Assembly (NCBI GenBank): GCA_949292775.1
Contig: CASFBL010000015.1
Span: forward strand, 1-51,701
DNA: 51,701 nt
Direction of reading: 5' to 3'
Origin: an uncultured Eubacteriales bacterium
Lineage (GTDB): Bacteria > Bacillota > Clostridia > Oscillospirales > Acutalibacteraceae
Shown: piece by piece, positions 22,465 through 27,054 of the stretch
How the letters are laid out: each line of letters begins with the position of its first letter
Numbering within the stretch: position 1 is the first letter of the stretch
Made by a program: the position numbers and the translations under genes
The notes under the pieces: generated by a model
What the model saw: only the letters and a program-made list of their open reading frames with translations
Databases searched by the model: none
What the model was told of the DNA's origin: nothing

Positions 22465-22484
22465 AATATTGTTTTAGTTAAAAT

Positions 22485-22523
22485 AAAGCCGTCGGATATC
22501 TTGGTTAGATATCCGGCGGCTTT
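22485..22523. terminator. Terminator between the metallophosphoesterase and PhlG-like genes
   Basis: AAAGCCGTCGGATATCT pairs with AGATATCCGGCGGCTTT (with G-U pairs) between convergent genes. Confidence 0.85.
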
Positions 22524-22534
22524 AAAATATTTCG

Positions 22535-23263
22535 TTATTTGTGCGCGCCATATAGAGAAGGTAAAATTTCTACAAGATTTCTATATTCCACACAACAGTG
22601 CTCTGCCATACCTTTTGCAGTATCGTCGGTTAATATCAGCTTTCGAAGCAATGGATTTTTCAAAGTTTCTCCCATCCAAAACCGGCTGATCAGCAAAAGA
22701 CCGTTATCGGTTTTTTTGAAAATGTGCGCCATTTCCGTGTGTGGAATAAGTCCCCGGCAAGCGCTGACATGCCCGCAAATAATCAGAGAAATATCATTCC
22801 TTTGCATTAGCGCTTGAGAAAAGCCAAAATCCTCCGGCAAAACAAATTCAATTTGTAAGGGCAAACAGGCTTTCCCGATGCGCTCTGTCGGGTATTGGGT
22901 GTTTGCCTGAAATGCGGGGCAGACGGCCTGCCCAAAATAAGCTGTATCTTTTTTGGCGTAGCCGACAGAAAAATGTGCACCCGGAAACCAAACCTTATAG
23001 CGCACACTGCTTTGCGGGTGCCACCAAAACCACCATAAAATTTCGTCTGCGGTAATTTCCGGCATGGGGCAAGTCATCGAGACCAAATAGCTGCCGTTTT
23101 CCGTTTTGCCGTAACCAACTTCCCTTTGCAAATCGGGATTCTCTAAAATCTGATTTTTATCCTGAAAAGCGGTCAGCGAGATTCCGCCCGGTTTCGTGAG
23201 CTTTTCTGCAATGTCGTCCGGAATTTTCGGCAGTGGTTTTTGCATCAATGCGTCAATCGTCAT
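22535..23263 (-). CDS. DAPG hydrolase (PhlG)/phloretin hydrolase-like protein
   Basis: A 242-residue protein resembling the PhlG family of zinc-dependent C-C hydrolases, which includes 2,4-diacetylphloroglucinol hydrolase and phloretin hydrolase. Family-like blocks are EILWWFWWHP and RYKVWFPGAHF (about residues 74-98), TERIG, and MAEHCCVEYRNL near the C-terminus. By position the zinc ligands would be H97, E127, H222 and E226 (an HxxxE pair), spaced much as in PhlG. It is shorter than PhlG (about 290) and phloretin hydrolase (about 270). GGAGGG precedes ATG 23263. It is the third gene of an operon after a GPH transporter and a histidine phosphatase. The real substrate is unknown. Confidence 0.7.
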   Translation of the reverse strand: MTIDALMQKPLPKIPDDIAEKLTKPGGISLTAFQDKNQILENPDLQREVGYGKTENGSYLVSMTCPMPEITADEILWWFWWHPQSSVRYKVWFPGAHFSVGYAKKDTAYFGQAVCPAFQANTQYPTERIGKACLPLQIEFVLPEDFGFSQALMQRNDISLIICGHVSACRGLIPHTEMAHIFKKTDNGLLLISRFWMGETLKNPLLRKLILTDDTAKGMAEHCCVEYRNLVEILPSLYGAHK

Positions 23264-23281
23264 AGAACCCTCCGCAGGTGT

Positions 23282-24010
23282 TTAGTGGCGTTCGTCTTCG
23301 TTTGCATACATTTCACAAAACCGCGCCGCAAAGGCAGGCGGTTCACCTTTGGCGTACAGATGAGAAATATCGCCGAACGAGCTGCAGCGGAACACCGCAA
23401 TGCCTTTTTCGCGTTCTTCCGTATACAGCGTCGTAACAGAAGAGGGTGCCGCGCAAAAGCCTTGCCAAAGGCAGACAGGGGAGATGTGCAGCAGGTGCGA
23501 AAGCATGACGCATTCCACACCGAAATGGCAGAAAAACGCTACCGTATCCATATTGGGCGCTGTGACTTTGTAGTATTTGCCTTTGCGCTCGTAACCGTGT
23601 GCCGCAAGCACTTTATCAAGCCCCTTGCAAACGCGGTTATATTCCGACTTCACACGCAATCCTGAACGCATAAATTTGGTGTCGGCCCATTTGTTGATGT
23701 CGTAAAGGTCGTCCTGCGGCGTGTAAAAGGAGGGCATCAAATCCCACGGACCGTGCACTTTTTTTGTTGTTTTGTCGTAAACCGGCGCGTGAAATTCGCG
23801 AAGCCAGCCGAGCGTTTTTGCCTTTTGTCCGGTGCGTCGGAGCGTGACCTTGGCTGTGTCCTGTGCGCGGCCGAGCGGCGAAAGATAACAAGCGTCTATT
23901 TTTTCATGCTCCAATTTGTCGGCAAGAAATTCTGCTTCGCGCCAGCCTTTTTCGGTTAAAGAATCCTTGGAATAGTCCGGGTCTGCGTGCCGTATAATCA
24001 AAATGCGCAA
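23282..24010 (-). CDS. Histidine phosphatase family protein
   Basis: A 242-residue member of the phosphoglycerate-mutase-like (RHG) superfamily. It begins MRILIIRHADPDYSKDSLT, with the phosphorylated histidine in RHA at residue 8; YLSPLGRAQDTAKV carries the second arginine; the second catalytic histidine is in FFCHFG. The frame is open upstream inside the transporter gene, but TTG 24010, one base after the transporter stop, gives the normal family N-terminus. AAAAGGAAG lies somewhat far upstream (11 nt). The gene sits between the GPH transporter and the PhlG-like gene. The substrate is unknown. Confidence 0.82.
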   Translation of the reverse strand: MRILIIRHADPDYSKDSLTEKGWREAEFLADKLEHEKIDACYLSPLGRAQDTAKVTLRRTGQKAKTLGWLREFHAPVYDKTTKKVHGPWDLMPSFYTPQDDLYDINKWADTKFMRSGLRVKSEYNRVCKGLDKVLAAHGYERKGKYYKVTAPNMDTVAFFCHFGVECVMLSHLLHISPVCLWQGFCAAPSSVTTLYTEEREKGIAVFRCSSFGDISHLYAKGEPPAFAARFCEMYANEDERH

Positions 24011-24011
24011 A

Positions 24012-25415
24012 TCAGTTCGCTTCCTTTTCCATATTTTCCTGCCGTGCATCCACAAAAGCATGTACCTTGTCGGCAAGCTCGCCATAAAGCTTATATTTTT
24101 TGGAGAATACAAGGAAAGAAATCAACACCAAAATCGGCGGAATCACAAAGGTCATAATGCTGATGGTATTTTGCGAAAGCGCAGTTTGCGCTTCAGCTTC
24201 CCCGTCGTAACCGGAAAGGCCGAGTCCGGAGAACAGAATAATGGTTTGCAGGGTATAAGCCATTTTCTGCAAAAAGCCTTTCATCGAAAAGGTTGTGCTT
24301 TCGTTGCGCTCGCCGGTTTTGTATTCGCCGTAGTCCACAATGTCGGCGAGCATGACTGTCTGGTTAACAAACATGGAGGCGATGCCAATGGAAGCGATGA
24401 TATAAGCGATATTCAAAAGCATCATCTGATGAAGTACCGGCCCGCAGAGAATCATCAAGAGATAACCGACAATGACCATAATCAGGCAGAAGCGGTAAAT
24501 GGTGCGGCGTGTGTATTTTTTGCTCATCAGCGGAATGACAAACAGTCCTAAGAACGAGCCGATCGCGCCGAACATTGCAAAGTTGCTTTGTTTGGTAATG
24601 TCGCCTTCAACATTTTCAAAATAGTAAGCACCCACGCCGCTGGTCAAATACCAGCCTGCGTTTGAAAGCATCGCAAAAATCATAAAGACGACCAACTGGT
24701 CGTTGCTTCTGACGACATCAAACATTTTGCGAAAACTGAATTTTTCCTTGTTGTAAACTACATGGCGTTCTTTGGTAACAGAGACGCAAATCACAGCAAA
24801 AACGACCAGCAAAACGGCGCAGATAATCGCCCAGCGAGAAAATCCTTGCGCGCTGATTTTCTTTTCAGCCTCACTTGCACCCGTGCCGAGAAGCACCAAA
24901 GCGTAAGGCGTGCAAATGGTGATGATGCCTTGACCAATACCGCTGAATGTGCGGGCGATGGTCGAAACGGTGTTGCGTTCACCCGGGTCGTTGGTGAAGC
25001 TCGGCACCATGCTCCAATAGGGAATGTCCGCCATGGTGTTGGTCATGCCCCAAAGCACATACATCACCGCAACATAAACAAACATACCGACAGAGCCAAG
25101 ACGAATGCCGGGGTTTGTAAACATCAGGGCAAGCACGACCGCGTTGCAGAAGGTACCTATTAAAATCCACGGGCGATATTTACCCATGCGCGTTTTGGTG
25201 TTGTCTACAATGACGCCCATCATCGGGTCGTTGATGCCGTCCCAAATACGGGCGATGGGTGTCAGAATCAGCAAAAACGCCGCCGGCATCAGCAGAACAT
25301 CCGTTAGATACTTGGAAAGATAAGAATAAAACAGACCGTAGCTTAAGTCGAGACCTACCGCACCGATGCCGTAACCGACATAGCGGGCAAGTGAATTACC
25401 GTTGCTCTTTTTCAA
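24012..25415 (-). CDS. GPH-family (MelB-type) sugar/glycoside:cation symporter
   Basis: A 467-residue, 12-span transporter of the glycoside-pentoside-hexuronide family in the major facilitator superfamily. The early signature DGINDPMMGVIVDNTKTRMGKYRPWILIG (with IWDGINDPMMG and GKYRPW as its key parts) is typical, as is the later DIVDYGEYKTGERNE. The start is TTG 25415, with GGAGG 8 nt upstream. It heads an operon with the histidine phosphatase and PhlG-like genes. The substrate is likely a sugar or glycoside; the neighbouring hydrolase would suit a plant phenolic glycoside, but that is inference. Confidence 0.9.
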   Translation of the reverse strand: MKKSNGNSLARYVGYGIGAVGLDLSYGLFYSYLSKYLTDVLLMPAAFLLILTPIARIWDGINDPMMGVIVDNTKTRMGKYRPWILIGTFCNAVVLALMFTNPGIRLGSVGMFVYVAVMYVLWGMTNTMADIPYWSMVPSFTNDPGERNTVSTIARTFSGIGQGIITICTPYALVLLGTGASEAEKKISAQGFSRWAIICAVLLVVFAVICVSVTKERHVVYNKEKFSFRKMFDVVRSNDQLVVFMIFAMLSNAGWYLTSGVGAYYFENVEGDITKQSNFAMFGAIGSFLGLFVIPLMSKKYTRRTIYRFCLIMVIVGYLLMILCGPVLHQMMLLNIAYIIASIGIASMFVNQTVMLADIVDYGEYKTGERNESTTFSMKGFLQKMAYTLQTIILFSGLGLSGYDGEAEAQTALSQNTISIMTFVIPPILVLISFLVFSKKYKLYGELADKVHAFVDARQENMEKEAN

Positions 25416-25446: not shown

Positions 25447-25475
25447 ATGATACCTTGTTTTTACACTTTCGTCAA
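25447..25475 (-). promoter_or_regulatory. Promoter of the GPH transporter-phosphatase-PhlG-like operon
   Basis: On the minus strand TTGACG (25470-25475), a 17-nt spacer and TATCAT (25447-25452). Confidence 0.65.
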
Positions 25476-25489
25476 TAAAACACAGTAAG

Positions 25490-25523
25490 AAAAAACAGAG
25501 TGGCCGAGGTGCGACCACTCTGT
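25490..25523 (-). terminator. Terminator of the second GPH transporter gene
   Basis: ACAGAGTGGTCG pairs with GGCCACTCTGT on the minus strand and is followed by six Ts. It separates the two GPH genes, which lie in the same direction. Confidence 0.88.
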
Positions 25524-25539: not shown

Positions 25540-27054
25540 TTATTTAGCCGCTTTTTGGGCTTTTCTTTCTTCGATTTCTTTGACCAGTTCTCTCTGGCGT
25601 TTTTCTGTAAGGGTGTAGAACAGCATCGGGATGATTGTGCCGACCATGCTCAATGCGCCGGACAGAACCAAAAGGTTCCAAAGCGTCTGTTCACCTTGTG
25701 CGGTGATGTAAACACCATCCGCAGCAGTCGGGTTGATGCCTGCCCAGTTGTAAGAGAACACGCCGATGAAAGCGCCGACAGCCATACCGATTTTGTTGAT
25801 GAAAGTCTGCATCGCGAAGCAGATACCCTCTGCACGCTCGCCGGTCTTCCATTCAAGATATTCAACGGTATCACCGATCATCGCATAAGTGACAATGTTG
25901 TTAACGCCCTGCGGAATGCCGAGAAGCACAAGGCCGATTGCGCAAACCACAAGTTTCCATTTTGCGTCATAACCGACAAAATACATCGCGAACATAACGA
26001 CCGCGCCGAGCACATGCACGCCGATGTAAGCCCATTTCTTGGTGAATTTCTTGGTCATCCACGGCACGAGAATCGAAGCGACTGCGCCGCCGGGGACAAC
26101 AAGAAGGGTAATCAGGCTGTAAAGACCTTCTTCTTTCAAAACATACTTGGCGAAATACAGACCGCCGGTGTATGTATAAACCATTCTTGCGCCGCCGAGA
26201 ATACCGGAAAGCACAACTAAAAGCAGCTCACGGTTTTTGAAGAGCAACTTTAAATTGTGACCGAGTGAAGGCGGAGTTTCGGCCGAAGTGAAGCGTTCCT
26301 TAGTGTTTTTGAAACCATAATAGAACATCGGAATGGCAATCACTGTAAAGACGACTGCACAAATGAAATAGGTCCATTTCAGTGTGGTGGCGTTTTCGTT
26401 GATGAACTGCGGAAGAACAGCACCGTCTGCGCCTTTGAATTTATTGGTTACAGCAGAAGTGATAATCGGAACACCGACCGTAACGATACCGGCGCCGAGC
26501 GTGCTCAAAAGACGCGCAACCGTCAGCACATTGCCACGGATGGTCGTGTTGTTGGTCATACAAGTTGAAAGACCCCAATAGGGAACATCGACCACCGTGT
26601 AGACCATCGACCAAATGACATATACCACGGAAATGATTGCGAAGGTAGAGGTGGCTTTCGGCTCTAAGAACGGGCAGAAGCACAAAATTGTTGCAATCGC
26701 AATCGGAATGGGCATCCATTTCAGATACGGGCGGCATTTGCCCCATTTTGTACGGGTCCGGTCAACAATAGAGCCCATAATCGGGTCGTTGCACGCGTCG
26801 TAAATACGAGTGCTGAGCATCAAAAATGCAACAGCCATCGCACCGGAAACGCTGCCAATCATGACATCGGCGGAACCGAACAGCAAGGCGTCTGTCATGA
26901 AGACGGTCAGGTACGAACCGATAATGGTGCAGATGAAGTTCTGACCAAAGCCGGCAATGCTGTACGCGATCGCCTCTTTCGGCTGCAAGTTTCCGTCGCC
27001 GGGCGTTGTGCCGAAGATCTTGTGCAAAAATGCAATGTCGTTAAGTTTTGCCAT
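25540..27054 (-). CDS. Second GPH-family (MelB-type) symporter
   Basis: A 504-residue, 12-span transporter of the same family as its neighbour at 24012-25415, clearly a distant paralog. Signature parts are DACNDPIMGSIVDRTRT and KWGKCRPYLKW, and in the second half YAMIGDTVEYLEWKTGERAEG. The C-terminus is basic and polar (EIEERKAQKAAK). ATG 27054 follows a GAGGAG site. It is a single transcription unit with its own promoter and a palindrome over the -35 region (27113-27138), so it is probably substrate-inducible. Sugar or glycoside uptake is likely; the substrate is unknown. Confidence 0.9.
   Translation of the reverse strand: MAKLNDIAFLHKIFGTTPGDGNLQPKEAIAYSIAGFGQNFICTIIGSYLTVFMTDALLFGSADVMIGSVSGAMAVAFLMLSTRIYDACNDPIMGSIVDRTRTKWGKCRPYLKWMPIPIAIATILCFCPFLEPKATSTFAIISVVYVIWSMVYTVVDVPYWGLSTCMTNNTTIRGNVLTVARLLSTLGAGIVTVGVPIITSAVTNKFKGADGAVLPQFINENATTLKWTYFICAVVFTVIAIPMFYYGFKNTKERFTSAETPPSLGHNLKLLFKNRELLLVVLSGILGGARMVYTYTGGLYFAKYVLKEEGLYSLITLLVVPGGAVASILVPWMTKKFTKKWAYIGVHVLGAVVMFAMYFVGYDAKWKLVVCAIGLVLLGIPQGVNNIVTYAMIGDTVEYLEWKTGERAEGICFAMQTFINKIGMAVGAFIGVFSYNWAGINPTAADGVYITAQGEQTLWNLLVLSGALSMVGTIIPMLFYTLTEKRQRELVKEIEERKAQKAAK

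Follow-up and report, generated by a model that had tools for sequence, protein, structure and literature searches.

Gene content of the locus

The window, by which we mean the whole stretch of 51,701 nucleotides that was analysed, contains a run of three genes coding for a GPH-type symporter, a histidine phosphatase and a member of the DAPG/phloretin hydrolase family (Table 1). Only 1 base separates the symporter from the phosphatase and 18 bases separate the phosphatase from the hydrolase, a spacing from which the three genes may be deduced to be co-transcribed as one message. A preliminary description of this DNA had reported TTG starts and almost no gaps. The spacing agrees with this, and TTG is the start codon of two of the three genes (symporter and phosphatase), whereas the hydrolase starts with ATG. 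For the phosphatase, the TTG at 24010 is the best-placed start, since it lies one base past the symporter stop and 15 relatives align with the protein from residue 1; a longer frame of 276 residues was set aside in favour of 242 residues.

Table 1. Features of the three-gene locus and its borders, in window positions.
Feature	Position	Strand	Remarks
GPH-type cation symporter, MelB-like	24012..25415	-	467 aa, TTG start, GGAGGA ahead
Histidine phosphatase, branch 1	23282..24010	-	242 aa, TTG start, PF00300 E 9.9e-16
Compact DAPG/phloretin-hydrolase-family protein	22535..23263	-	242 aa, ATG start, GGAGG ahead, PF18089
Hairpin, probably a shared terminator, perfect-looking, T-rich tails	22484..22524	-	between convergent hydrolase and metallophosphoesterase genes
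Promoter-like site ahead of symporter, weak	25447..25475	-	TTGACG-17-TATCAT, 10/12
Terminator-like hairpin between upstream second GPH symporter and three-gene unit	25495..25523	-	12 pairs and T tail

The hairpin that follows the hydrolase gene (-25 kcal/mol, z -7.65, with none of 200 shuffles equally good) was missed by the pattern scan that gave the promoter-like and terminator-like sites, and is probably a terminator common to the hydrolase and metallophosphoesterase genes. Promoter-like sites in the scan were hardly above chance (5 observed, 3.8 expected). Just upstream of the three genes, beyond the second hairpin, there is another, distinct GPH symporter of 504 amino acids (25540-27054).

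The symporter passes the GPH model TIGR00792 with 347.2 bits (cut-off 231.35) and resembles MelB-type symporters in this respect. Unlike these, it does not reach the MelB equivalog PRK10429 (329.3 bits against 456), and its pairing with a phosphatase was seen only in the genus. The phosphatase matches PF00300 with 58.4 bits (cut-off 21.7) and reaches no NCBIfam equivalog.

Family and fold of the hydrolase

The third protein does belong to the DAPG/phloretin hydrolase family, as had been proposed. PF18089 is matched over residues 32-238 (E 4.4e-54, 183.8 bits, cut-off 22.7), and PhlG and phloretin hydrolase entries of the PDB are matched with E values of 4e-19 to 6e-19 by the single sequence and of 1e-46 to 3e-50 by a profile. 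The cut-off of the PhlG equivalog NF047887 is not reached (83.4 bits against 600). The window genome holds one copy of the gene.

A PhlG fold is predicted with high scores (pLDDT 96.6, pTM 0.92, 53 sequences used). The six best Foldseek matches of this model are chains of 5xey, 5xe5 and 3hwp, with TM values on the query of 0.79-0.82, and the seventh is a plant Bet v1-type protein (E 9e-4); the predicted structure is thus a Bet v1-like fold with the extensions of the DAPG hydrolase family.

Three known enzymes can be compared with the hydrolase. Pseudomonas PhlG (PDB 3hwp) shares its Pfam family, its fold (TM 0.82 on the query), the four ligand positions and the Tyr and His helper positions, but is only about 25% identical, and the hydrolase stands without a biosynthetic cluster. 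The phloretin hydrolase of Mycobacteroides abscessus (PDB 5xey) is the top structural match (TM 0.80) and keeps the ligand positions, at 23-24% identity. Phy of Eubacterium ramulus has in common the family, the ligand positions and a gut anaerobe as host; its identity to the hydrolase is about 30%.

A compact branch of the family

Relatives were sought in 84,980 species genomes; 226 were confirmed, and the best 80 of the 226 were kept. Among these best 80, identity to the window hydrolase is 49-67% in one group (L043 to L062) and 33% or less in the next, with no values between, when two partial matches (L063 and L064) are left aside. Members of the second, ordinary type have an N-terminal extension where complete, while the proteins of the first type are without it, and are here called compact.

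A tree of 53 rows sets off the window protein, together with 19 full-length relatives, by a branch of length 2.49 with support of 100/100. The tree leaves out the partial L061, L063 and L064, and the alignment leaves out L025, L029, L032, L034 and L042 and 37 of the 58 ordinary loci. When two PDB chains were added the branch length became 3.16, and PhlG and the phloretin hydrolases of M. abscessus and E. ramulus all fell on the opposite side, again with 100/100. Across trees the stem of the compact clade measures 2.5 to 4.2 changes per site, so that its chemistry could have shifted. By sequence, then, the compact clade forms a deep gut-bacterial branch of a known family, apart from the characterised members tested. 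The term PhlG-like, as used in the preliminary description, is right as to family and misleading as to distance. In the accessible portions of the open-access literature on phloretin hydrolase, PhlG and DAPG hydrolase, the clade is named nowhere.

The distribution of the compact type is sporadic. Its holders among the best 80 of the 226 relatives are labelled Clostridia, Oscillospiraceae, Lachnospiraceae, Bacilli and Olsenella; they are gut bacteria, in keeping with the gut setting suggested earlier. A ruminant is named in the record title of 10 of 20 compact and 11 of 58 ordinary loci (p 0.017, best 80 of 226 relatives), in a collection that is unevenly sampled and includes no reindeer record. 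With the window genome counted in each case, PF18089 was matched in 2 of 39 genomes of the genus, in 10 of 398 genomes of a family sample (five of them compact by identity) and in 9 of 391 genomes of a class sample. Horizontal spread appears to be the best reading of this pattern. Support for placing the Olsenella rows within Clostridia is only 30/38, and thus the case for transfer between phyla rests on patchy spread and identity. Carriage of the gene by phages or other viruses was considered and rejected, as none of 600 matched stretches of viral contigs encodes a relative, a weak negative obtained with only two short patterns.

An ordinary member of the same class (L025:1483-3561, genome G208) has its PF18089 domain at the C-terminal end of an 818 aa open frame. 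The part ahead of it matches the fumarate-reductase-type flavoprotein domains PF00890 and PF02910, which makes this a natural flavoprotein-hydrolase fusion.

Putative zinc site and clade-specific residues

The four residues originally proposed as the zinc site, H97, E127, H222 and E226, are found at these places in the protein and align with positions 137, 168, 278 and 282 of the 3hwp chain. After subtraction of an 8-residue offset these are 129, 160, 270 and 274, which we take to be the His, Glu, His and Glu zinc ligands of PhlG. All four also align with the ligand positions of the M. abscessus phloretin hydrolase. H97, E127 and E226 are present in all 20 compact and all 33 ordinary rows of the alignment, and H222 in 20 of 20 and 32 of 33. 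Of two further residues common to both types, Y89 occurs in every row (20 compact, 33 ordinary), and H180 in all 20 compact and 32 of 33 ordinary rows. The hydrolase probably binds zinc through H97, E127, H222 and E226.

Other positions set the compact clade apart. All 20 compact rows share C65, H175, T176, E177, C223 and C224, residues that few or none of the 33 ordinary rows have; the position of C223 is Asn in every one of the latter (33/33). Residues 222-230 form the clade motif HCC[IV]EYRNL. Asn-132 and Tyr-229 of PhlG, presumably the residues that contact DAPG, are not retained in the compact hydrolase. At the position aligned with Asn-132 there is I or V in 17 and N in 3 of the 20 compact rows, and at that of Tyr-229 there is Phe in all 20, as also in all 33 ordinary rows. 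With these changes and the long stem, the substrates of PhlG and Phy cannot be carried over to the compact clade.

Probable gain of the hydrolase behind an existing gene pair

Among 15 other phosphatase loci of the genus, examined over at most 1.5 kb on each side, a GPH symporter gene adjoins the phosphatase in 12, on the same strand in 8; the rest are divergent from a distant GPH-like gene (4) or have no GPH gene (3). Outside the genus, in the same family, none of 29 loci has a GPH gene near the phosphatase within the flanks examined. The phosphatase is thus a genus-level partner of the symporter and not of the hydrolase. The pair occurs without the hydrolase and the hydrolase without the pair, so that a pathway for phenolics need not include the phosphatase.

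Eight other genomes of the genus have the symporter-phosphatase pair; in none of them does the hydrolase follow it, and the PF18089 profile found no hydrolase elsewhere in these 8 genomes. The three-gene order of the window is therefore not kept by close relatives. The phosphatase closest to that of the window (95% identical) is found in G024, where its end and that of the convergent metallophosphoesterase gene both align with the window; between them lies an unmatched spacer of about 108 bp, compared with about 844 bp in the window. The hydrolase gene also has the lowest GC content (0.457) and third-position GC (0.483) among 14 genes measured. It has the look of a single, recent arrival behind the existing pair. 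Loss of the hydrolase from the relatives, rather than gain in the window species, keeps some small probability. Misassembly of the gene into the window contig is unlikely, because both flanks match relatives in the genus.

Only one other genus genome (G012, contamination 9%) carries a hydrolase, which is 65% identical to that of the window. The GC content of the contig on which it lies (0.376) is like that of two further contigs of the same genome (0.374 and 0.336) and gives no sign of a stray contig, but it is far from the 0.50 of the window genome.

Neighbours of the hydrolase in other genomes

Gene neighbourhoods were compared in 23 loci, the window and 22 other compact loci. In L054, L058 and L064 the longest-frame rule called no hydrolase frame, and the remaining frames of these loci were still clustered. 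The largest family of neighbours other than the hydrolase itself occurs in 3 of the 23 loci. In 15 other compact loci there are 20 genes on the same strand within 200 bp of the hydrolase; 14 of these were assigned to a Pfam family, none of which is common to different loci, and neither a symporter nor a histidine phosphatase is among the 20. The compact hydrolase thus has no constant partner. The sole adjacent neighbour found in more than one locus is a metallophosphoesterase, which adjoins the hydrolase in the window (opposite strand) and in L061 (same strand).

In a roe-deer bin (L045:6588-10053) the compact hydrolase is flanked by two PF12831 FAD-dependent oxidoreductases on the same strand. 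In another locus (L048:7302-9725) the flanking genes encode a GyrI-like small-molecule-binding protein on one side and a GNAT acetyltransferase on the other, and in L062 a MarR regulator lies beside the hydrolase; these few neighbours might lend the gene a small-molecule or drug-response flavour.

The phloroglucinol ring pathway

A conserved cluster for the phloroglucinol ring in E. ramulus is described in the accessible part of one study (PMC10470551). The contig of E. ramulus Phy (L118) bears such a ring-degradation cluster.

Dihydrophloroglucinol cyclohydrolase is, we assume, a member of PF04199. This family was too broad to serve as a pathway marker by itself, being present in the window genome (one distant protein, 52.7 bits) and in 8 of 14 control genomes, and the E. 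ramulus PF04199 protein was therefore used as probe, on the presumption, drawn from its family, its neighbours and the cluster described for E. ramulus, that it is the cyclohydrolase. Its gene (L156) has as neighbours an SDR, a dehydrogenase and a frame resembling butyrate kinase, all three identified from the starts of their sequences rather than by profile.

The probe had no match in the 21 genomes that carry the compact type, as against 8 of the 17 that carry an ordinary member, its own genome included (Fisher p 0.0005). Without the two E. ramulus genomes the counts are 0 of 21 and 6 of 15 (p 0.003); both tests treat as independent genomes that are not. The absence of the cyclohydrolase from the compact holders is weaker than it appears, since most of these are metagenome bins with no stated completeness. 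In the window genome the probe had no match at E 0.001, and the protein closest to the E. ramulus reductase-like SDR, a probe of presumed function, is 26% identical to it.

Possible function

We suggest, with a probability of roughly 0.6, that the third gene encodes a lone zinc C-C hydrolase, gained behind a symporter-phosphatase operon and used most likely for the removal of a toxic dietary acyl-phenol. The gene would have arrived singly at the 3' end of the operon and would probably be read from the promoter of the latter. PhlG, according to the available part of PMC8003664, has a Bet v1-like fold and uses zinc to hydrolyse DAPG, from which it removes a single acetyl group; close analogues are not accepted. 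In the compact enzyme, water would be activated by a zinc ion bound to H97, E127, H222 and E226, with Y89 and H180 assisting; zinc and water would polarise an aryl ketone, and an acyl group would be cut from a hydroxylated aromatic ring, or from a similar beta-diketone, and released as acid. The benefit might be the removal of a toxic dietary acyl-phenol or the acid set free from it, and not growth on the ring. Detoxification appears likelier than such growth because no ring-degrading enzyme was detected and no partner gene is constant, and the argument for it draws mostly on these missing partners. The operon setting of the hydrolase is best read as incidental.

The preliminary description had seen in the three genes a compact route for uptake and cleavage, in which the symporter would import a plant phenolic glycoside and the hydrolase, with the phosphatase in between, would cut the aglycone. 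GPH proteins transport glycosides, the three genes share a strand with hardly a gap and are likely co-transcribed, and in L047 a GPH homologue lies five frames upstream of the hydrolase. Nevertheless, this pathway is largely refuted by gene order, given that the pair is complete without the hydrolase in all 8 other genus genomes that have it and that the hydrolase has neither partner close by in the 15 other loci scanned. In addition, the nine genes scanned between 19.2 and 28.2 kb include none called as a glycosidase. We consider it very improbable. A genuine phloretin hydrolase, serving flavonoid breakdown by the gut community and passing phloroglucinol on to other bacteria, is unlikely. It would suit the family and ligand positions shared with E. 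ramulus Phy, and phloretin hydrolase is known from gut anaerobes, as stated in the accessible text of PMC8398226. The compact clade, however, excludes Phy together with the other characterised enzymes, identity to Phy is low, and the cyclohydrolase homologue is missing from all 21 compact holders. It is likewise unlikely that the enzyme is a metal hydrolase that no longer acts on aromatic ketones and instead cuts another beta-diketone or activated C-C bond, or an ester bond, in a substrate that bacteria may make. The very long stem would fit such a change, as would the replacement of PhlG Tyr-229 by Phe and the clade-only residues C223-C224, H175-T176-E177 and C65 at or near the site, whereas the retention of Y89, H180 and the four ligand positions, common to PhlG and Phy, argues against it.

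The small family of zinc C-C hydrolases gains a deep and well-delimited branch, whose hosts are gut bacteria in daily contact with plant phenolics. Its apparent spread as a lone gene should make the enzyme easy to express and assay. Members of the branch should not be named phloretin hydrolase, nor should their neighbours be taken as a pathway. If detoxification is true, the gene would offer a genetic handle on the disarming of acylphloroglucinols by the gut communities of herbivores.

A bolder version, which we regard as improbable, would make the compact clade a mobile gene by which gut bacteria of herbivores detoxify, through deacylation, antimicrobial acylphloroglucinols from browse, hops, ferns or lichens. 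Its boldest substrate candidate is usnic acid, which is reported to be broken down in the reindeer rumen by a process said to be unclear in the accessible part of PMC9657990.
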